Source: a virus. Taken from it: DNA of 24,875 nucleotides. Below the pieces are notes generated by a model. That model made no database searches. It saw nothing but the letters and a program-made list of their open reading frames with translations, and was not told where the DNA came from. Made by a program: the position numbers and the translations under genes. Positions 8,782 to 23,307 of this stretch are shown one piece after another (within the stretch, counting starts at the first letter, position 1; every line of letters starts with the position of its first letter). The DNA lies in IMG/VR virus record IMGVR_UViG_3300003690_000113, positions 1 to 24,875 of that record. One strand, 5' to 3'.

Positions 8782-11763
8782 ATGAACGGCGCACCTGACT
8801 TTACACAGTTTGATCGAGATGCCGTAAGTCCCTACATCGACCAGGCGGTAACATTCCACCGTCAAAGGGGAGTCTTCCGAAGAAGGAACGGTGCTATTAC
8901 GTTTGAACAAGGAGAAAATGGTGCTAATTTTGGCAATGGCATAGAAGATGTAACTGAATATATAACATCGCCAGAGGGACTGTCGCCACAGCTAGGACCA
9001 TCCGCTGCCAGCGGAGTGCCTGCACCACCCTCTCAAGGGCCACCCACTCCGTTACCTCCCGGCGGCACCGGCACCCAGCCTCCTCCACCCGGCGGCATTG
9101 GAACACAGCCCCCACCTCCCAGCGGCATTGGAACACAGCCTCCACCCCCCGGCGGCACTGGAACACAGCCTCCACCTCCCGGCGGTGACGGTACACAACC
9201 ACCGCCTCCCGGTGATACTGGAGTACCTCCTGGTGTCACCGCAGACCCCCGTATTAACCCAGATTTTACAGCTGCTTTTAATACAGCCTTTGGTCAGCCA
9301 GGGTATGACGCTAGGTTCGACTATAACAGAGACAAAATTATTAACGTCTCTGATCTTCAGGAATATGGAAGACGATCGACTCCCGAAAGAATGGATCAGG
9401 GCATTCGGGCATACCGACCCAGCGAGGATCTGACCCCAGAGCAGATTGACCAACAAAACTGGACAGCCAAGACTCAAAGCAACATCGACCAAATCCTGAC
9501 GGCCCCAGATCCGGACGGACCGCTTCCAAGATTTTACTCTCAATTTATAGACGGATATAAAACACACCTGGAAGGTGCTTCTAAAAGCCAGAGAGACAAA
9601 GCTTTTGCAGCGCCGCATGTTGAATACAAGAATTATGTAATAAGCCAGCTCGCGGCTACCCCTGAACTGGAAGCTATAATGCGCGGGGAATGGACCCCCG
9701 AAAATGTAGATGCCGTTGTCCAAGCTATTGTTTCTGGCGAGGGCATCCTTAGCCGGAACCATCTGGAGTCAATTCCCGAAGCCCTTCTTTCCTCTAAATA
9801 CAAACAACATATCTATAGAGCTGTAACTGCTGCCCAGGAGGGGCCACGCACGAGGCCAGCCCTTGGCGATCCTGGGAGAGATGTTTCTGATTTTGATCCG
9901 GATCAAGAAGTCGACTACGAGGGTGATGTCACCCTACCTCCGGGTGCCAAGACCGATGAAGATATTAGAAAGGCTGTTGACGGGGCCGCAACGATGATGA
10001 GGCGCGTCGGTTTTCGGTCGGGAACATGGGACATAGAAGTCATACGCGGTGAACTAGCAGAGCAAGGCTTTAGCCCTGACCAGATAGAACAGATTCTTAA
10101 GGAGTCCCAGGGAATAGCTGGAGATGCTGACTCTTTCGTTAAGAATCTTTATGGGCAGATGGAAGCTGGAGAGTTTGATGAGGAAGCTGCCAGAAGTATG
10201 CTTGAAGCTGAGGGATTTGGCCCTAAGGAGATAGATTCTTTAATTGGGGAAGCCAGAAGTCGTTATGAAGGTAGGACGGATGAATTCGGTTTCGCTACTC
10301 CTCCCGATCCTGATGAACCAGATCCTGATGAACCCGATCCTGATGAAGTTGAATATCCTGCGGGATGGGTGGACAACGACGGAGATGGCTTTGATGATAA
10401 CACAGACCTGGACATAGATGGCACTCCAAGAACATTTACGCAGGAAGAACCGCCGCGAGTTGAAGGGGATATAGACCGTCCCGGTATTCCTGATACTGAC
10501 GATACAATACAGGACATCCTCACCTACCTCAGAGACGCGTCTCAAACAGAAGACGGCATCGACAATATCGCCGCCAGAGACCTGAATAAACTCAGCCGCA
10601 GTGCGGAAAAAGCCCAAGAGCAGCTCATGGAAGACCTTAACCGCCTGGGCCTTGCTGGTATGGAGACAGGAGATGCACAGGCGGCGATTGGTGAGTTTAA
10701 GGGTGCGATACTTGCTCGACAGGATGAAATACGCGCAGGGTCTGATGAGAGAATCAGGGATAACATCGACAAGCTGATTAATGTTGCCGGCCTTGAAGTT
10801 ACCAAAGCAGCGCACGACAAGAACATAAAGAGTCTAAAGGACAGCATCGAGAGCAGGGACCAGCTGGCGCTCTTCAATGGTCTTCTAGACTTGTTAGGCC
10901 CAAGCGGCATGAATCTTCTCAGTGGGGTCTTTGATGATGGTGGCGCAGGCCCCGGCACTGGTCCTGATTTTGGTGGTATTAATATTCCAGAAGGTCTTTG
11001 GGGTGTTGAGGGACTTGATACGAGCAAGCTTTCTGCCGCTTTTGATAAAGACGGAAAAGTTATTAAGGACATGTTCTCCTATACAAATGCCGCTGGTGAT
11101 ACAGTTAATATCCCTAAAAACTTTGATATCATGACCGACTCAAAGGCGATTGAAATGAGGGCGGGCGGGATGTCAAATGCTGATATTATGGACCAGATGG
11201 CAGCGACAAAGCCTCCCAAGTGGTTTGACAGGACAAAGCTGAAGCAGGCTGCTGGCTTTTTAGCGTTAGCCGAGATGGCGGATCAGGTTTTACCTGGAGT
11301 GGCGGGAGCAATCGCCAAGGGTGCTTCTCAGGGTGCGGCCATAGGAAGCATTGTCCCGATTATAGGAACGACGTGGGGAGCAGCTATTGGAGCCGGAATT
11401 GCAGGAGTAATAAATGTTCTTGGCATTGGTATGTCTGGACACAACGATAGACAGATTGAAAGTTCTTGGCATCCAGCCATTCTGGACGTGTTGTTCCAGA
11501 AGGGATTTACGCCTAGGGACAAGGTGTCAAAGGCAGTCCTTGATGAGATTGCCGGACAACTAAAGATTCCATTCACAGGAAAGAATTCTATTGCTTTCCG
11601 CAGGTCTTCACATTACCAGGGCGCAGATATAGAAAAACAAGATAAGATCTGGTTTGAGGCTTATCAGAATGGGGAGCTGTCACGCGAAGACTTTATCACC
11701 AGGTCTTTAGCTTCTAGTGTTGGTAATTCAGAGATTAACCTAAATGATAAGAAGTGGGGATAA
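8782..11763 (+). CDS. Very large virion protein with proline repeats, two calcium-loop motifs and a glycine zipper (ejection protein candidate)
   Basis: 993 aa. Residues about 76-150 are low-complexity Pro/Gly built from five 10-residue repeats of the type GGIGTQPPPP. At D180-Y-N-R-D184...N188-x-x-D191 there is a complete dockerin/EF-hand-type loop. A second acidic loop, D531-N-D-G-D-G, lies after a PDPDE repeat. Residues about 415-495 hold paired helical units with the pattern L-x-E-x-GF-x-P-x-x-I. Residues about 838-885 form a glycine-zipper hydrophobic stretch (AIAKGASQGAAIGSI, then GAAIGAGIAGVINVLGIG), which could insert in a membrane. The soluble C-terminus follows. Glycine zippers in big phage proteins after the tube gene fit internal proteins ejected to build a channel through the host envelope. 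AAGG lies upstream of the ATG. No catalytic motif was seen. Confidence 0.65.
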   Translation: MNGAPDFTQFDRDAVSPYIDQAVTFHRQRGVFRRRNGAITFEQGENGANFGNGIEDVTEYITSPEGLSPQLGPSAASGVPAPPSQGPPTPLPPGGTGTQPPPPGGIGTQPPPPSGIGTQPPPPGGTGTQPPPPGGDGTQPPPPGDTGVPPGVTADPRINPDFTAAFNTAFGQPGYDARFDYNRDKIINVSDLQEYGRRSTPERMDQGIRAYRPSEDLTPEQIDQQNWTAKTQSNIDQILTAPDPDGPLPRFYSQFIDGYKTHLEGASKSQRDKAFAAPHVEYKNYVISQLAATPELEAIMRGEWTPENVDAVVQAIVSGEGILSRNHLESIPEALLSSKYKQHIYRAVTAAQEGPRTRPALGDPGRDVSDFDPDQEVDYEGDVTLPPGAKTDEDIRKAVDGAATMMRRVGFRSGTWDIEVIRGELAEQGFSPDQIEQILKESQGIAGDADSFVKNLYGQMEAGEFDEEAARSMLEAEGFGPKEIDSLIGEARSRYEGRTDEFGFATPPDPDEPDPDEPDPDEVEYPAGWVDNDGDGFDDNTDLDIDGTPRTFTQEEPPRVEGDIDRPGIPDTDDTIQDILTYLRDASQTEDGIDNIAARDLNKLSRSAEKAQEQLMEDLNRLGLAGMETGDAQAAIGEFKGAILARQDEIRAGSDERIRDNIDKLINVAGLEVTKAAHDKNIKSLKDSIESRDQLALFNGLLDLLGPSGMNLLSGVFDDGGAGPGTGPDFGGINIPEGLWGVEGLDTSKLSAAFDKDGKVIKDMFSYTNAAGDTVNIPKNFDIMTDSKAIEMRAGGMSNADIMDQMAATKPPKWFDRTKLKQAAGFLALAEMADQVLPGVAGAIAKGASQGAAIGSIVPIIGTTWGAAIGAGIAGVINVLGIGMSGHNDRQIESSWHPAILDVLFQKGFTPRDKVSKAVLDEIAGQLKIPFTGKNSIAFRRSSHYQGADIEKQDKIWFEAYQNGELSREDFITRSLASSVGNSEINLNDKKWG
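9061..9225 (+). repeat. Tandem 30-base repeats coding for GGxGTQPPPP units
   Basis: Five full units of 30 bases (9061, 9091, 9121, 9151, 9181) plus a partial sixth, in frame in the 993-aa gene. Units differ mainly at codon third positions and one residue (T, I, I, T, D), so they are old enough to have drifted or were kept apart by selection. The array encodes a flexible proline-rich linker. Confidence 0.9.
10306..10350 (+). repeat. Three tandem 15-base repeats coding for DPDEP
   Basis: GATCCTGATGAAC-type units begin at 10306, 10321 and 10336, the last one diverging after GATGAA. They encode an acidic DPDEPDPDEPDPDE linker just before the second calcium-loop-like motif of the 993-aa protein. 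Confidence 0.85.
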
Positions 11764-14133: not shown

Positions 14134-15096
14134 ATGGCAAAAGATAAACGCAAGGAACGAACTTCAGCTGCTGACCTATTAAAGCTGTATTATACTTCTC
14201 AGGAAAAGCCTGAGGAAGAGCCTGCCGTTATACCTAAGCCTGTTGTTACACCTAAGCAGGAAAAGCCTGAGATACCATCTGCCGTTATACCTAAGCCTGC
14301 GCCACCATCTCGGGAAAAGTCCAGGCGGGAGCCGCCTCCACCAGAAGACTCTAAGTCCTTTTTAGATTCGTTTGGAAGTCTTACGCAATATCTTCCAAGC
14401 GTTGCTGATGTCACCGAATACGCTGGTAGAGCTATATCGCCAACGGCATCTGCTGCGTACGACCTACTTCCAGACCATGCACAGGAATTTGTGAAGCAGG
14501 GAATTCAAGCTACAACAGGCATTGACACTGGCCCAATAACAGAAGGGGATCTTACTACTTCTACATTTGAGGCAATGAAAGAGAGTGCCTGGGCAGGTCT
14601 AAGAAGAACTGGCGGGAAGCGTTCTGACTATAAGGACTATACTATTGATAGTCCTTCAGATATTTTTGGTTCTCCTGAAGGGTTTGTTAGCGCAGCAGTT
14701 GAACCTAAAAAACGAGCGGGATATATTACTGGAAGAACAGACACTTTTGAAATTGATCCAGAAGGAAATCTGATTTTAAAAGACAAGTTTGATTTTGGAA
14801 GTGGGGGGTATGAAGGGTTTGGCTGGAAACCAAAAGACAAAAAACGATTTGGCTGGCTAGAAGGGATTCTAGCAGGCAAGAAAGAGTATGGTAGGGATGT
14901 AAGATCCCCCATGTATTCAAAAGTGCATAGTCTTTTTGATAAAAAGGGGCCATATCCCTGGAGTGGTGCTTTAAATACGTCAAGAGATATTCGTATTAAT
15001 CTTGGTCCGGCACCTCCAGATATTAAAAAGTTGCTGGCGAGAAAGAAAAATAACCCTGACCCTGTTGAAAGCAGCTTGGGAGCTAATACTCAGTAA
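14134..15096 (+). CDS. Hypothetical virion protein with duplicated N-terminal linker
   Basis: 320 aa; only a weak AGG-type ribosome site. The N-terminus is basic (MAKDKRKERTSAADLLKLYY) and continues into a Pro/Glu/Lys linker built from a 19-residue duplication (AVIPKP appears twice). Around residues 75-130 are helices (SFLDSFGSLTQYLPSVADV, then ISPTASAAYDLLPDHAQEF). The C-terminal half is Gly/aromatic-rich (DKFDFGSGGYEGFGWKPKD, FGWLEGI) and ends with MYSKVHSLFDKKGPYPWSG then NTSRDIRINLGPAPPDIKK, a pattern I cannot place. It sits among likely ejection proteins, and its stop overlaps the next ATG (TAATG). I do not assign a function beyond virion component. Confidence 0.6.
   Translation: MAKDKRKERTSAADLLKLYYTSQEKPEEEPAVIPKPVVTPKQEKPEIPSAVIPKPAPPSREKSRREPPPPEDSKSFLDSFGSLTQYLPSVADVTEYAGRAISPTASAAYDLLPDHAQEFVKQGIQATTGIDTGPITEGDLTTSTFEAMKESAWAGLRRTGGKRSDYKDYTIDSPSDIFGSPEGFVSAAVEPKKRAGYITGRTDTFEIDPEGNLILKDKFDFGSGGYEGFGWKPKDKKRFGWLEGILAGKKEYGRDVRSPMYSKVHSLFDKKGPYPWSGALNTSRDIRINLGPAPPDIKKLLARKKNNPDPVESSLGANTQ
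14200..14313 (+). repeat. Imperfect 57-base tandem duplication
   Basis: Units at 14200-14256 and 14257-14313 share CAGGAAAAGCCTGAG at their starts and the 20-base TGCCGTTATACCTAAGCCTG (14223 and 14280). The spacing is exactly 19 codons, so the frame is preserved. It lengthens the proline-rich linker of the 320-aa protein. Confidence 0.85.
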
Positions 15097-17999
15097 TGGC
15101 TAATGGTTTCGGAAGTGGTTTTGCTGGTGGGTATAAACCACTTCAAACATCTGGTAGGCTAGGAGACTTGCCTCGAATCGAGAACCTTAGTGACGCCCAG
15201 TATAGAAGCATGAAGGCGGCACGGACAGAAGCCCGGAGGACTAGGGAATACCTGGGTGCCGTAGGCCGCGAAGGTCTTATGGATGAGGAGCTAGAGCCGG
15301 AGGGGGGCCTCTTAACTACGGCGTTCGATTATCTGGGGCGCCCACATCGGGCCGTCCTGGGTGGAATATATGAGCTGACTAAGGGGTCTGGCGACATCAA
15401 CGAGGCTTTGTCTGAGGCGTCGCGTCAGTTTATCCAGAGTGAGGACCGTAGGTATAAGAAGCTGAGGAGCGGCAGCCAGCTTCTGACAGACAGGCTTGGG
15501 GACGAGGCAACGTGGGGTGAGGCTATAGCTGGCTTTGTCCTTGATATTGCTATGGACCCGATAAGCCATATCCCTATTGTTGGATGGGGAGGAAAGGCAC
15601 TCGGTGGGATAGAAAGGATCGCGGCTCCCGCAATAGCAAGGGCTGCAATAAAGCCTGGTACCCTCGGTGCGCTGGCGAGAAGCGGCATCAAGGCAAAAGA
15701 TGTCGGCGGCAGCATGTTTTCTCCTGGTTATAAACTCAGGCAGCAGGCGCATCGTCCAGAACTTGAAGATATCTCCAAGATGAAGTTTAGAAATCTCAGC
15801 GCCCTCCGAAGCGGAGAGGGAGCGCAAATCAACTTTATTGGCAGCAAGGTTATTGATGATAGTATGCTTGACAGCTATGCGGGAATGCAGATGGCTGACC
15901 AAACACTAAGAGCGAAGCTGGAGGCAGATTTAAGAGAAAAGATGGCCCACGCCATAGATGGGCTGACAGAATCAGAGTCCAAGCTTATTACGATACACGC
16001 AGAAAATGCCACTAAGACTCTGGATGAGCTTCTTAAAGAGGGGTATAAGAAGTTGGACCTTCCAGGCATTTCTGATCCAGAGCGCCGCAAGCTCGTTGTC
16101 GGCAAGGCCAAGGACGTTCTTGGTTATCTACGTAAGACCCTTGGCGAAGAAGAGGTAAGGTTAGGTCTTTTAGATAAGAAGCATCTTCGGAAAATTTATG
16201 TACCAATTCGTACACTGCAGGGCAAGCAAGTATCTACGGGGGCTTGGAGGGAAGCAACAGTAGCTACCAAGACGAGGAAGAGGGTGCAGCCATTCCAGAT
16301 GGAGAGAAAGTATAATACAGTAGAGAATGCCATTGATGCTGGTATTCCAAACCTGGAACTCGATATCCGAAAGCTGGTAGCGACAAGAACGTATGAGTCA
16401 ATAAAAGCAAGGACTACTCGCAACCTGAGAAAAAGTATCTTCGAGTCAGATATTGCCATTCCCTTACATAAGATTGGTATGGAGGTTGGTGTTGAATCTG
16501 ACGAGTTATTGAAGTCGATCAAGAGATATAAGCAGACAGGTATTGCAGATGACACTGTTAGGCAGGCTCTGGATATAGGCTATGACTTTGCCGAAGTAGT
16601 CAAGGGTGATGGCACCTGGTATACCCTGCCCAAGGCAATCGTTGACGATCTTGGTTCTGCCCAGAAATTCTTCTCAAATAATGAAGAGTTTAATACTCTG
16701 GTAGAAGGCTTTCAGCGGTGGCAGGGGATGTGGAAGGGCGGTGCATTGTTTAGCGTCGGCTACCATATGCGGAATATGTGGTCAAATAATTTTAATAATG
16801 CTATCGCAGGCATTACCGACCCTAGGCTTTATAAAGAAGCCGCAAAGCTACAGTATGCAAATGGTCAGATATCCAGAAACTTTATTACTGGTCTTCCTAA
16901 AGAGATTAGAAAACAAGCTACGCCAGAAGATATAGAGTTGTTTAACAGGATGCGCGGCTATGGTGTTGTGGGCCGTGGGCAGATCGGTGTAGAAATAGGA
17001 ACATCTGTAACGGGCAGGCCAACAGGTTCTATTCCTGGCATACCTGGGAAGGTTCTTGGAAGCCGCCCTATGATGGCAAACAGGCAGTTTGGTGAGACCG
17101 TAGAGGACAACGCAAGGATTGCCCATTTCTTAGGCATCAAGGAGAAAATCTGGAATAAGAAAAAAGGTCTTACAAGGAAGATGACCAAGTCAGAAGATCG
17201 GAAGCTTCAAGCATATAGAAAGACCTTCATTGCCAGCAGGATCAGACGGCCCCCTATCAGTAAGGATGAGCTGTTCGCAGAGATGCAGGCTGCTGACAGC
17301 GTAAAGAAGTATCTCTTCGACTATGAAGACCTGACACCTTTTGAGCGTGATGTAATGAAGAGTATCATCCCCTTCTATACTTGGATGAGGAAAAACATAC
17401 CTCTCCAGATCGAGTCTATGTTTACAAAGGAAATGTTTGGAAAGAAGGGGCTATGGTATATGGCGATTCCGAAGATCAAGAATAACCTGGAGCAGATGTC
17501 GGCAGACTTTGAAGAGGTGCATACTCCAGACTACTATGAAGATATGTATGCGACACGTCTTCCGATAAAGAGAGAGGGAAAGGCAATATACCTGAATCCC
17601 AACTTACCATTTCAAGACCTGAACAAAATGACCTACAAGGACGTTATGTCAAGCCTCAGCCCCGCATTCAGGTTACCCTATGAATTGATGGCGGGGGAAA
17701 AAGGCTACTCATATTTTCTTGATCGTCCTATCGAAACAAGAGCCGGAGATCCTGATCCACTTACGGGATTATCCAGGAAAACGCGATATGCTGCTGAGGT
17801 ATTGCTTCCTCCTGTTTCTCGTTTTATTACCAGGCCGATAGAAAAAGTTCAGAGGGGGCAAGGCTTTGAGCTGGCTTTATCCGAGCTTGCGGGTATCAAA
17901 CCTATGACGCTGGATATCGAAGGACGCAAGCGGGCCAGGATATATGCTGAACGTGATGCCGCTCGAGCGGCAAAATCTAAACTGCTGGGGGAACAGTAG
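15096..17999 (+). CDS. Large internal virion / ejection protein (probable)
   Basis: 967 aa. The protein is rich in charged helices, with R/K-rich segments throughout, and has only a short hydrophobic region near residues 125-190 (GFVLDIAMDPISHIPIVGWG, Ala-rich IERIAAPAIARAAIKPG). Near residue 745 it has YEDLTPFERDVMKSIIPFYT then WMRKNIPLQIESM. This 'PFER-x5-IIPFYTWMRKN-PLQ' segment recurs in very large phage-encoded internal or polyvalent proteins and is the best family clue. Around residues 540-560 is FQRWQGMWKGGALFSVGYHMRNMWSNNFNN, also typical of that group. It lies last before the fibre gene, where podoviruses carry ejection proteins. No lytic transglycosylase motif was found. Codon use is closer to that of the portal than to the preceding three genes. 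Confidence 0.65.
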   Translation: MANGFGSGFAGGYKPLQTSGRLGDLPRIENLSDAQYRSMKAARTEARRTREYLGAVGREGLMDEELEPEGGLLTTAFDYLGRPHRAVLGGIYELTKGSGDINEALSEASRQFIQSEDRRYKKLRSGSQLLTDRLGDEATWGEAIAGFVLDIAMDPISHIPIVGWGGKALGGIERIAAPAIARAAIKPGTLGALARSGIKAKDVGGSMFSPGYKLRQQAHRPELEDISKMKFRNLSALRSGEGAQINFIGSKVIDDSMLDSYAGMQMADQTLRAKLEADLREKMAHAIDGLTESESKLITIHAENATKTLDELLKEGYKKLDLPGISDPERRKLVVGKAKDVLGYLRKTLGEEEVRLGLLDKKHLRKIYVPIRTLQGKQVSTGAWREATVATKTRKRVQPFQMERKYNTVENAIDAGIPNLELDIRKLVATRTYESIKARTTRNLRKSIFESDIAIPLHKIGMEVGVESDELLKSIKRYKQTGIADDTVRQALDIGYDFAEVVKGDGTWYTLPKAIVDDLGSAQKFFSNNEEFNTLVEGFQRWQGMWKGGALFSVGYHMRNMWSNNFNNAIAGITDPRLYKEAAKLQYANGQISRNFITGLPKEIRKQATPEDIELFNRMRGYGVVGRGQIGVEIGTSVTGRPTGSIPGIPGKVLGSRPMMANRQFGETVEDNARIAHFLGIKEKIWNKKKGLTRKMTKSEDRKLQAYRKTFIASRIRRPPISKDELFAEMQAADSVKKYLFDYEDLTPFERDVMKSIIPFYTWMRKNIPLQIESMFTKEMFGKKGLWYMAIPKIKNNLEQMSADFEEVHTPDYYEDMYATRLPIKREGKAIYLNPNLPFQDLNKMTYKDVMSSLSPAFRLPYELMAGEKGYSYFLDRPIETRAGDPDPLTGLSRKTRYAAEVLLPPVSRFITRPIEKVQRGQGFELALSELAGIKPMTLDIEGRKRARIYAERDAARAAKSKLLGEQ

Positions 18000-20888: not shown

Positions 20889-21031
20889 AGACCATAAAAA
20901 ATGTCTCGACAGGAGAAATCCGCAGGGTGCGGGAGTTTGAAGCTTCGGAGCGTGTCAAGCGCGGCTGGACCTATATACCAAAGAGCCTGTGGAAGGCCAT
21001 AAGGGCTGGAGGGAACAAGGATGAGAAATGA
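20885..21031 (+). CDS. Very small conserved-looking basic protein (48 aa)
   Basis: The ATG overlaps the holin stop (ATGA at 20885-20888) and its TGA overlaps the next ATG at 21028. The sequence MKTIKNVSTGEIRRVREFEA, with an R/K-rich C-terminal half containing RGWTYIPKSLWKAIRAG, is of a type I associate with short phage proteins that start 'MKTIKN-STGEI-RV'. Function unknown. Double overlap with both neighbours and intact coding argue for a real gene. Confidence 0.65.
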   Translation: MKTIKNVSTGEIRRVREFEASERVKRGWTYIPKSLWKAIRAGGNKDEK

Positions 21032-21414
21032 ACTACGGCGACATGGGTCAGATCCCTCCATCCGCGTGGAAGCGGGAAGCGCTCGTCAAAAAAGTTGAGG
21101 AATTACAGGAACTTTGTGATAGGCTTCAGGGTAACCTGCGGACGATTTCCTCAACGGGAGACCGTGTCCGCGCAGAGAAGCAGATTCGTATTCACGGGAA
21201 AAAGAAAAAAGGTGTCGTTGATACGGTGGGGATGAAACATGTTGCGTCGATGACACGGCATACGATTCTGAGCAATCTGATTAGCAATGCTATCTGGGTG
21301 CCGAGCGCATATGCCGCCGGGGAGTTTTCAGTCTATATGCTGCTGGCGGCGGTGACGACATCCATCCTCCAGCCGTTACAAAAATATGTTCAGAAACGAC
21401 AGGAGGTGTATTGA
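21028..21414 (+). CDS. Hypothetical coiled-coil protein with C-terminal hydrophobic segment
   Basis: 128 aa. Residues 13-50 form a likely coiled coil (KREALVKKVEELQELCDRLQ), a very basic patch IRIHGKKKKG follows, and about residues 88-118 are hydrophobic (WVPSAYAAGEFSVYMLLAAV, TTSILQPL), possibly one membrane helix. Position between the holin and the endolysin suggests a lysis accessory or regulator, but it has neither a lipobox nor the usual layout of a spanin. The start overlaps the previous TGA; the stop overlaps the endolysin ATG by one base. Confidence 0.6.
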   Translation: MNYGDMGQIPPSAWKREALVKKVEELQELCDRLQGNLRTISSTGDRVRAEKQIRIHGKKKKGVVDTVGMKHVASMTRHTILSNLISNAIWVPSAYAAGEFSVYMLLAAVTTSILQPLQKYVQKRQEVY

Positions 21415-21809
21415 TGCCTACATTCGGGACGCGCTCCCTGCGTATGCTGTCGGAGTGCGACGAGAGAATACAGATCGTCCTCAATGATGTAATTCGCATA
21501 TATGACTGTGCCGTGATCTGTGGCTACCGCAATGAGGATGCACAGAACGAACTTTTCAGGACCGGGCGGTCACACGTACGGTGGCCTGACTCCCAGCATA
21601 ACCACCATCCGAGCCTGGCGGTGGATGTTGTGCCGTACCCTATTGACTGGTCTGACAGGGAGCGATTTAATTATTTCGCGGGCTACGTGATGGGAGTAGC
21701 ATCGTCACACGATGTGGTGTTGCGGTGGGGTGGTGATTGGAACAGGGACTGGAAGGTCAGAGACAACAACTTCGATGACCTGCCTCACTTTGAATTGATT
21801 GAGTCGTAG
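21414..21809 (+). CDS. Endolysin, M15 family L-alanyl-D-glutamate peptidase-like
   Basis: 131 aa from the ATG at 21414 (AGGAGG, 7 bases upstream), preferred over a TTG at 21411. It has the M15 pattern found in small phage endolysins: SQHNHHPSLAVDVVPYPIDW provides zinc ligands H62 and D71, and DLPHFEL provides H125 with D122 and E127 near the active site. ICGYRNEDAQNELFRTG is the conserved element before them. Its length matches single-domain M15C endolysins (about 130-140 aa), and there is no cell-wall-binding domain, as in phages of Gram-negative hosts. It has no signal peptide, so release depends on the upstream holin. Its last 25 bases overlap the convergent 106-aa gene. Confidence 0.85.
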   Translation: MPTFGTRSLRMLSECDERIQIVLNDVIRIYDCAVICGYRNEDAQNELFRTGRSHVRWPDSQHNHHPSLAVDVVPYPIDWSDRERFNYFAGYVMGVASSHDVVLRWGGDWNRDWKVRDNNFDDLPHFELIES

Positions 21810-22105
21810 ATCCTTCCCAGCAGTTCATCCATCATGAGAGTTTCATCCTCTGCTGTTTCCCTCCATGCCTGGATAAACTTATCCCGTGGCAAGTCTATCT
21901 CAGGGGGTGGTCCGTTAAGTTCCTCCAGATACTTGGTCCACTTCTGAGCTTTCTTAGATATCTCCTCTGGCGTAGCCTCCCCTGCCCACTTATATGCCTG
22001 CTGCCAGGTCTCGTCATCAATAGCACCAGCATCTACCGCTTTCAGTAGTACATTGCCGAATTTAATTTTCATCTCCTGACGTACGAAATTATTAAAGTTA
22101 TTCAT
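21785..22105 (-). CDS. Hypothetical helical protein, convergent with endolysin
   Basis: 106 aa. Mostly helical and acidic, e.g. KFGNVLLKAVDAGAIDDETW, KWAGEATPEEISKKAQKWTK and DETLMMDELLGRIYDSINSK. I do not recognise it. The ATG at 22105 has almost no ribosome site of its own, but it overlaps the stop of a 12-codon ORF with a strong AGGAGG site (TAATG), so coupling is likely. A second ATG at residue 12 is preceded too closely by AGGAG to be used well. The gene's last 25 bases overlap the endolysin on the other strand. It lies downstream of a 523-base noncoding stretch, so it may be expressed from the promoter at 22642-22670. Confidence 0.65.
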   Translation of the reverse strand: MNNFNNFVRQEMKIKFGNVLLKAVDAGAIDDETWQQAYKWAGEATPEEISKKAQKWTKYLEELNGPPPEIDLPRDKFIQAWRETAEDETLMMDELLGRIYDSINSK

Positions 22106-22143
22106 TATAAGACTTTTATAGATTTAAAATCGTCTAAGGTCAT
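22105..22143 (-). CDS. 12-aa leader ORF coupled to the 106-aa gene
   Basis: On the minus strand AGGAGG (22148-22153) lies 4 bases before an ATG that opens MTLDDFKSIKVL and stops at TAA; that stop shares its final A with the next start (TAATG). It has a far better ribosome site than the gene it precedes. A short leader of this kind can load ribosomes for the downstream gene or sense translation. It might also be the eroded 5' end of the downstream gene after a frameshift. Seen directly; function inferred. Confidence 0.5.
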   Translation of the reverse strand: MTLDDFKSIKVL

Positions 22144-22164
22144 ACACCCTCCTCTATAAAACCT

Positions 22165-22307
22165 AGTCCCCCCAAACCACGCAATATTTTAAGTCAGCGT
22201 CCGTCGACTGCTGTTGCACGTACCGATGACCCTTGGAGCCAGTCGGTAGTCGGAAGCTCAACGTCAGCGGCGTGGTTTATCGTGGGTGGCCGCACGTCCA
22301 CGTTTTT
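22165..22307 (+). ncRNA. Candidate structured RNA ending in an intrinsic terminator
   Basis: AAACCACGC (22174-22182) pairs perfectly with GCGTGGTTT (22270-22278), closing an 87-base domain. Inside, CGACTG (22205-22210) can pair with CAGTCG (22240-22245), while TACCGA (22221-22226) can instead pair with TCGGTA (22243-22248), two exclusive states. An AGTCGG-T-AGTCGG direct repeat and two copies of GTCAGCG (22193, 22263) are also present. The terminator hairpin follows 2 bases after the closing stem. A TATAAA sits at 22155-22160, but I see no good -35 box, so a dedicated + promoter is unproven. It may instead be the 3' end of the late transcript. No ORF of note lies here. Confidence 0.45.
22281..22307 (+). 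terminator. Intrinsic terminator, + strand
   Basis: CGTGG (22281-22285) pairs with CCACG (22298-22302), and GTG/CAC pair inside around the tetraloop GCCG. The stem is followed at once by five T (22303-22307). This is the only clear stem plus T-run in the window and would stop rightward late transcription about 470 bases after the endolysin, before it runs into the opposing early genes. Confidence 0.7.
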
Positions 22308-22364
22308 CCATCTTCACGATGTTCGGCGGGTCAGTTCATTTTGCTCACTTGAAGGACAATAGTG

Positions 22365-22460
22365 GGGGGGTGACAACGGCGTTCGCCATCACCCCCCTGA
22401 TGTCTTCGCAAAAAGAGGCGTCGAAGACACTCAGGGGGTAAACTCCCCAAGCTTACCCCC
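22365..22460. promoter_or_regulatory. Chain of three mutually exclusive G/C stems
   Basis: Stem 1 is GGGGGGTGA (22365-22373) with TCACCCCCC (22389-22397), with GGC/GCC inside around GTTC. Stem 2 is CCCCCTGATGTCTTCG (22393-22408) with CGAAGACA (22422-22429) and TCAGGGGG (22431-22438), 16 bp with one bulged base. Stem 3 is GGGGGTAA (22434-22441) with TTACCCCC (22453-22460). The C-run is shared by stems 1 and 2, and the G-run by stems 2 and 3, so forming stem 2 excludes both others. This is the architecture of attenuators and riboswitch expression platforms, though no T-run follows. Confidence 0.55.
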
Positions 22461-22463
22461 ACG

Positions 22464-22515
22464 CCAAAGGCACCCTCTCTCCCCGCAAAGCACCTTTGGA
22501 TATACAATACAAAGG
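22464..22515. other. Competing CCAAAGG / CCTTTGG / CAAAGG elements
   Basis: CCTTTGG (22493-22499) can pair with CCAAAGG upstream (22464-22470, 7 bp) or through CCTTTG with CAAAGG downstream (22510-22515, 6 bp). Again one segment has two perfect partners. Confidence 0.45.
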
Positions 22516-22640
22516 CCCTAGCCGATTTGTTTTAGAACCCACTAAAACGGTCACCCGGAGAAGGGAAAACAGGGACGCTCGGCTAGGGCAGTAGACATAA
22601 AAAAGACCTTGCTTTCTCTCTCCGTGGGTTCCAACAAAAC
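22515..22640. other. 11-bp-closed RNA-like junction with loop-complementary tail
   Basis: GCCCTAGCCGA (22515-22525) pairs perfectly with TCGGCTAGGGC (22579-22589). Inside is a perfect 7-bp hairpin GTTTTAG-AACCCA-CTAAAAC (22529-22548), and a weaker CCC/GGG stem (22554-22565) makes a possible three-way junction. GAACCCAC (22535-22542), covering the hairpin loop, is complementary to GTGGGTTC (22624-22631), and GTTTT (22529-22533) to AAAAC (22636-22640). This allows either a pseudoknot or a rearranged long-range helix. Confidence 0.55.
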
Positions 22641-22641
22641 C

Positions 22642-22670
22642 AAGATAGGAAAATATCCGGTCAAAGTCAA
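22642..22670 (-). promoter_or_regulatory. Sigma70-like promoter, minus strand
   Basis: Read on the minus strand: TTGACT (complement of 22665-22670), a spacer of exactly 17 bases, then TATCTT (complement of 22642-22647). The -35 matches 5 of 6 and the -10 matches 4 of 6 consensus bases. It overlaps the end of the 93-aa gene and would start RNA near 22635, directly into the hairpin-rich noncoding stretch. Confidence 0.5.
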
Positions 22671-22948
22671 AGCTTACTTCTGATCTTCCACCCCATCACG
22701 GCCTCCAGATATTCTTTTGAAGTCTGGGCCTTCTCGAGCAGGTCATAACACCATGCCTTGGTTTGATAGGGGACTTCCATCCACTGTGATTCGGCGTAAG
22801 CCCTGCAAATATCTCCCAGCCTGCGTTGTTCCTTCACCGCCTCCTCGGGTATTGGGCCTGGGCGTTCGGTATACTCGAACCGGTATATCTTGTGCAAGCC
22901 GTCCAGCTCTCCCCTTGCGAGAAGATATTCCTCTTTCGTTATGTGCAT
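22667..22948 (-). CDS. Hypothetical protein at end of recombination operon
   Basis: 93 aa from the ATG at 22948, with GGAGG 4 bases upstream; a longer reading from 23002 would overlap the resolvase by 64 bases and is unlikely. The sequence is helical and charged: MHITKEEYLLARGELDGLHK, RPGPIPEEAVKEQRRLGDIC, SQWMEVPYQTKAWCYDLLEK. No family recognised. It overlaps the upstream resolvase gene by 10 bases, placing it in the same transcript. Its stop coincides with the promoter that faces the noncoding stretch. Confidence 0.65.
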   Translation of the reverse strand: MHITKEEYLLARGELDGLHKIYRFEYTERPGPIPEEAVKEQRRLGDICRAYAESQWMEVPYQTKAWCYDLLEKAQTSKEYLEAVMGWKIRSKL

Positions 22949-23307
22949 AGTTCCTCCAGGTGTATGGTTACCTTGCCGTCTCCTCCCCTGCCTTTCTCCC
23001 ACCGATACATCCGTTCCAGATTTTTGGGTGCGTCATCCTCGAGGACATCAAGCTTGACCAGCGCATCCACGATCTCCTTGAAGGAGTATGCCAGGTTCTC
23101 GTAGTCGGGTTCTCTGGACGAGTGCCTTGTGAAGGTGCCTCTCGCCCGTTTTAAGGGACGCTTCGGCTTCCTCCCCTGTATCTCCACCCACAGCCGGTCA
23201 ACCCAGTATTTCGCCTCTCTGTGCCCCACGCTCCAGTGCCTGCCTCGCGTGTGGCTGGTGTTCATCTTGGGCAATTTCCCCGCCAACTCAATCTTCAGTG
23301 TGTACAT
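22939..23307 (-). CDS. RusA-like Holliday junction resolvase (probable)
   Basis: 122 aa from the ATG at 23307; an upstream GTG at 23340 lacks a ribosome site. RusA enzymes cut four-way junctions using paired acidic residues. The start LKIELAGKLPKMNTSHTRGR fits the 'P-x-N' opening strand, and the core REPDYENLAYSFKEIVDALV, then LDVLEDDAPKNLERM, matches the family's R-x-D-x-D/E-N...K...D-x-L...DD arrangement (D68, E70, N71, K77, D81, D91, D92 here). The second acidic residue is Glu rather than Asp. Length agrees with the family (about 120 aa). It overlaps the HNH gene by 20 bases and lies in the same operon as the annealing protein, which supports a recombination role. Confidence 0.7.
   Translation of the reverse strand: MYTLKIELAGKLPKMNTSHTRGRHWSVGHREAKYWVDRLWVEIQGRKPKRPLKRARGTFTRHSSREPDYENLAYSFKEIVDALVKLDVLEDDAPKNLERMYRWEKGRGGDGKVTIHLEELCT

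Follow-up and report, generated by a model that had tools for sequence, protein, structure and literature searches.

The window analysed here comprises the 24,875 bases of a linear viral record, a fragment of the genome of a marine phage. Its late genes lie on the plus strand and end with an endolysin gene (21411-21809), and minus-strand genes, which include those of a RusA-like resolvase and an Erf-like protein, enter from the right. A geneless gap of 561 bases (22106-22666) is bounded by the minus-strand genes at 21785-22105 and 22667-23002. An earlier sequence-only reading had called this gap unusual among tightly packed genes, and it is the largest in the window by far; the runner-up, at 20889-21027, has 139 bases and precedes the gene at 21028. 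The same reading had delimited a noncoding stretch at 22144-22666, which is indeed geneless but falls short of the full gap, and whose start omits a possible 12-codon ORF. The features assigned to the locus are listed in the table in the order of the minus strand.

Features of the gap and its borders (positions are those of the window; P1, P2, a and h1 to h4 are helices)
Feature	Position	Strand	Remarks
-35 box TTGACT	22665-22670	-	Shares bases with the upstream gene's stop codon; L013 has TTGACG at this position
-10 box TATCTT	22642-22647	-	17 bp from the -35 box; within conserved block CCTATCTTG
Structured RNA, ~467 nt	22168-22634	-	Predicted start to GGGGGG; 475 nt in L013; ends inferred
Pseudoknot 5' strand TTGGAACCCAC	22624-22634	-	At the predicted transcript start; GTGCGGCTG instead in L013
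Stem P1, 5' arm GCCCUAGCCGA	22579-22589	-	10 bp in both phages, 9 identical
Hairpin a, short, inside P1	22554-22573	-	4 shared pairs, 2 double changes
Hairpin P2, inside P1	22529-22548	-	7 pairs: 4 double changes, 1 single change
Pseudoknot 3' strand GUGGGUUCUAA	22532-22542	-	In and beside the P2 loop; UGGCCGCAC instead in L013
Stem P1, 3' arm UCGGCUAGGGC	22515-22525	-	From the stem list and the shared-fold alignment
Hairpin h1	22464-22499	-	13 pairs, 4 of them G-U on the minus strand; 6 double and 6 single changes in L013
Hairpin h2	22434-22460	-	GGGGGUAAG... in the window, GGGGGCAAG... in L013; 2 double and 2 single changes
Hairpin h3, variable domain	22400-22430	-	Arranged differently in L013
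Hairpin h4, variable domain	22365-22397	-	14 pairs, aligned to a hairpin of L013; 8 double changes; least certain part of the alignment
3' branched domain	22173-22279	-	Closing helix 22270-22279/22173-22182; inner hairpins match L013, closing helix partly
Conserved hairpin loop block (G)ACGGACGCUGAC	22193-22205	-	Window/L013 alignment
Conserved 3' block GCGUGGUUUGGGGGG	22168-22182	-	Window/L013 alignment
106-aa gene, no assigned function	21785-22105	-	Downstream of the RNA; 57% identical to its L013 counterpart

Perfect stems were found at 22515-22525/22579-22589 (11 bp), 22365-22373/22389-22397 (9 bp), 22174-22182/22270-22278 (9 bp) and 22393-22400/22431-22438 (8 bp), along with a near-perfect one at 22434-22444/22450-22460 and others. 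The dense perfect stems reported earlier between 22174 and 22589 are therefore present, except that the 16-base pair is imperfect, with 81% complementarity. A reported complementarity between a loop and the tail was also recovered (22532-22542 with 22624-22634). The gap folds better than its dinucleotide shuffles on both strands, in line with the claim of structure beyond chance: the minus strand reaches -201.6 kcal/mol against -179.7 kcal/mol for the shuffled sequences (z=-3.8), and the plus strand has z=-3.2. Because such z-scores are by themselves insufficient to establish a functional RNA, relatives of the locus were sought.

Scanning with the endolysin identified L013, in which the gene order around the gap matches that of the window. 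It is the sole syntenic relative found, and the comparison is one of two sequences. The neighbouring proteins of the two phages are 57-78% identical, and the product of the gene just upstream of the RNA only ~31-38%. No similarity between the two gaps was detected by blastn, and a search for coding conservation within them gave nothing significant. When the minus strands are aligned, short blocks common to both gaps appear in the same order: CCTATCTTG, GCCCTAGCCGA, CGGCTAGGG, ACGGACGCTGAC and GCGTGGNTTGGGGGG. A further common string, CACGATA, was set aside as probably a chance 7-mer.

A simple scan placed a sigma70-type promoter at the same minus-strand position in both phages, TTGACT-17-TATCTT in the window and TTGACG-17-TATCTT in L013. 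In the window, scanned on both strands, this predicted promoter is the single site of the strict form TTGACN-(16-18)-TATNNT. A transcript would be expected to start 7-8 nt past the -10 box, where the 5' strand of the pseudoknot begins. From there the order of elements is common to the window and L013: the promoter is followed by the pseudoknot 5' strand, and P1 with an internal hairpin whose loop is the pairing target; after another two hairpins and a variable domain comes the branched 3' domain, which carries the loop ACGGACGCUGAC, and the RNA ends in GCGUGGNUUGGGGGG. At 467 nt, the core of the window is almost as long as that of L013, which has 475 nt.

The shared fold of the two gaps was obtained with a purpose-written program for simultaneous folding and alignment. 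It comprises 95 pairs in 13 helices, and 49 of the 95 pairs are changed on both sides, a count that is inflated because the alignment was fitted to the structure. We also computed a structure-only score, which gives no credit for common letters, and compared it with a null of circular permutations of L013, in which the helices are mostly kept while their order is destroyed. On the minus strand the score was 197.8 versus 141.9 ± 11.2 for the permutations (z=5.0), a null that used our own aligner and few permutations; in a larger null of 40 permutations the maximum was 174.3. The plus strand gave z=2.0, and two homologous coding stretches serving as controls gave z=0.2 and 0.0. RNAalifold gave a weaker signal, z=-1.9, on a sequence-based alignment; a MAFFT alignment with many gaps proved too poor for this program. 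Three of the hairpins, h1, h2 and h4, contain G-U pairs that also speak for the minus strand. With compensatory changes found in the shared fold of the two sequences, the gap very probably encodes a conserved structured RNA on the minus strand. The L013 comparison supports the structured phage RNA proposed from the sequence alone, and the strand, left undecided there, is by this evidence most likely the minus strand, which also carries the predicted promoter. Loss of the stems in relatives that keep the genes had been named as the outcome that would speak against such an RNA; in L013, the stems are retained, and the fold appears to have persisted in this distant relative despite the change of most letters. 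The location, the strand, the conservation of the promoter and the fold common to the two phages are supported.

Within the 5' domain, a pseudoknot is formed in the window by UUGGAACCCAC and GUGGGUUCUAA, and at the corresponding place in L013 by GUGCGGCUG and UGGCCGCAC. This helix begins 6 nt after CCTATCTTG in both phages and is retained with completely different letters; it is 11 bp long in the window, 9 bp in L013. P1, in turn, is a 10-bp stem (GCCCUAGCCG/CGGCUAGGGC) nearly unchanged between the phages. In two sets of 4000 shuffles, a hairpin plus pseudoknot of such strength arose 13 and 9 times, figures that serve as guides rather than exact probabilities because the thresholds were chosen after the case had been seen. 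Farther along the RNA, both phages offer the 3' arm of h2 an alternative partner, a G-rich strand downstream (CCCCCUGA/UCAGGGGG and UUGCUCCC/GGGAGCAA), at 22393-22400 and 22431-22438 in the window and at ~11045-11052 and 11010-11017 in L013. This alternative pairing may be a switch between two folds, or an effect of the G/C runs.

To our knowledge, very few large structured phage RNAs are known, and the functions of GOLLD and ROOL are poorly understood. The Rfam search suggested earlier matched no known class: no family reached its gathering score in the window or L013, and under permissive thresholds the best match around the gap had an E-value of 0.13, far below its gathering score. The covariance models of GOLLD and ROOL gave no match up to E=10 at 22000-22800 of the window and 10650-11300 of L013. 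The comparison with these two classes that had been drawn from the sequence holds for the character of the RNA, but neither Rfam model matches it. Both are large RNAs of phages that contain pseudoknots and assemble into cages of RNA alone, with no known function (PMC12286853). ROOL, an RNA of phages or prophages, resembles the present one in its large size, its multiple pseudoknots and the absence of a known function, whereas a described example has 659 nt (PMC12286853) and the RNA here is shorter, has no Rfam match and lies in a window, itself a genome fragment, where ARAGORN found no tRNA or tmRNA. GOLLD shares with it the large size, marine examples and a division into one conserved and one variable part (PMC12286853). 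In contrast, GOLLD RNAs often exceed 800 nt and lie near tRNAs, and the RNA here has no Rfam match and carries its variable part internally. The association of GOLLD with tRNA genes is common but not universal.

Downstream, the RNA is followed on the same strand by the 106-aa gene, whose protein is modelled, with moderate confidence, as entirely helical and yielded no significant match. No intrinsic terminator was found after the core on the minus strand of the window or L013. Since no terminator separates the core from this gene, the RNA may be the leader of the gene, or may stand alone with its 3' end formed otherwise. As a matter of judgement, we favour the stand-alone reading, in view of how large and branched the fold is and of its tethered 5' end: judged from the sequences, the RNA of ~467 nt probably functions by itself, made from its own predicted promoter. 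A long structured 5' leader from the same promoter, controlling translation of the 106-aa gene, had been offered before as the alternative, and we consider it the less probable of the two, though a serious one. It would account for the missing terminator, for the almost constant distance from the core to the AUG (62 nt in the window, 63 nt in L013), and for the co-occurrence of RNA and gene in both phages, as against the recombinant relative L094, where neither turned up. Long regulatory leaders and riboswitches likewise have a promoter, a structured RNA and a gene in the same direction. However, the RNA is far bigger than usual phage leaders, its pseudoknotted 5' end is unusual for them, and no cis-regulatory family of Rfam matched at gathering score. 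The window gene lacks a clear Shine-Dalgarno sequence except through the overlapping 12-codon ORF, whereas the L013 gene has its own; a possible anti-Shine-Dalgarno pairing in the window has no counterpart in L013, and the pairing of the tail with the core is modest. The 12-codon ORF itself (MTLDDFKSIKVL, 22105-22143, minus strand) has a good Shine-Dalgarno sequence (GGAGG), and its terminal TAATG overlaps the start of the 106-aa gene, an arrangement reminiscent of translational coupling.

Three other explanations fare much worse. The 106-aa gene overlaps the end of the endolysin gene convergently in both phages, and transcription from the promoter heads toward the endolysin gene, so that antisense control of lysis, with a structure that merely stabilises the RNA, could be envisaged; the detailed conservation of the fold and its loops would then go unexplained, and we regard this as highly improbable. 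Still less credible is a DNA element, either a replication origin or a packaging site, built of inverted repeats. The inverted repeats are dense and lie between converging late and early genes, but the pseudoknot pairs cross others, which is impossible in DNA cruciforms, and yet are retained with new letters; moreover, the G-U pairs suit one strand and the promoter sits exactly at the edge. Chance folding of a noncoding sequence rich in G/C runs is just as improbable, for although G-runs and C-runs pair readily and the fold z-scores alone are moderate, the order of helices is the same in L013, with z=5.0 against about 0 for the coding controls.

For the RNA acting on its own, the following course can be proposed. 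A host-type RNA polymerase would start at the conserved TTGACn-17-TATCTT promoter on the minus strand, and from such a start the transcript would begin with the strand that pairs into the P2 loop. Once this first strand had paired there, the pseudoknot would anchor the 5' end at the three-way junction of P1, and h1, h2, the variable domain and the branched 3' domain would come next, giving a compact fold of ~467 nt. We infer the transcription, the position of the 3' end and an action of the RNA itself beyond that of a leader, whether as a binding platform or, in the manner of GOLLD and ROOL, as a scaffold or assembly. We see an even chance that it founds a new family, unrelated to GOLLD and ROOL, of large pseudoknotted phage RNAs that are transcribed independently; such an RNA would work as an RNA machine, or as an assembly made of RNA only, while the phage infects an uncultured marine host. 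It would offer an independent case among phage RNAs, with its own predicted promoter and a defined 5' pseudoknot, and it is short enough for chemical probing and cryo-EM.

Further relatives were looked for in several ways. Protein scans with both flanking genes found none, and DNA patterns of the conserved blocks recovered only L013 and chance matches from viral contigs. A covariance model of the 5' domain, run on 48 whole viral records, identified L013 alone, besides weak matches with E-values of 0.15 and 0.39. A genome scan for the P1 stem yielded 43 stretches, and the top-scoring one, L129, was rejected as a relative: it sits in a bacterial chromosome and resembles an ordinary terminator. 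No relatives emerged when phage databases were queried with the gap, the portal, the 967-aa protein, RusA and HNH. The searches of the viral and genome collections used exact short patterns, so relatives have probably been missed. The probable portal (153-2249) and the 967-aa protein (15096-17999) yielded no relatives when compared with 50,697 deposited phage records, and fragments 71-93% identical to them occur in viral contigs; the phage is therefore taken to belong to an uncultured lineage. Two partial relatives diverge near the locus. In L094 (2777-6745), the Erf and HNH genes are the same as in the window, RusA is broken off after ~19 residues, and beyond it lie other genes, including an apparent terminase, with no gap RNA seen; this arrangement points to recombination near the site of the RNA. 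In the viral contig L012 (1-1190), the preceding gene of the lysis cassette is 97% and the endolysin 80% identical to the window, and the sequence continues into a 778-aa gene in place of the minus-strand module.
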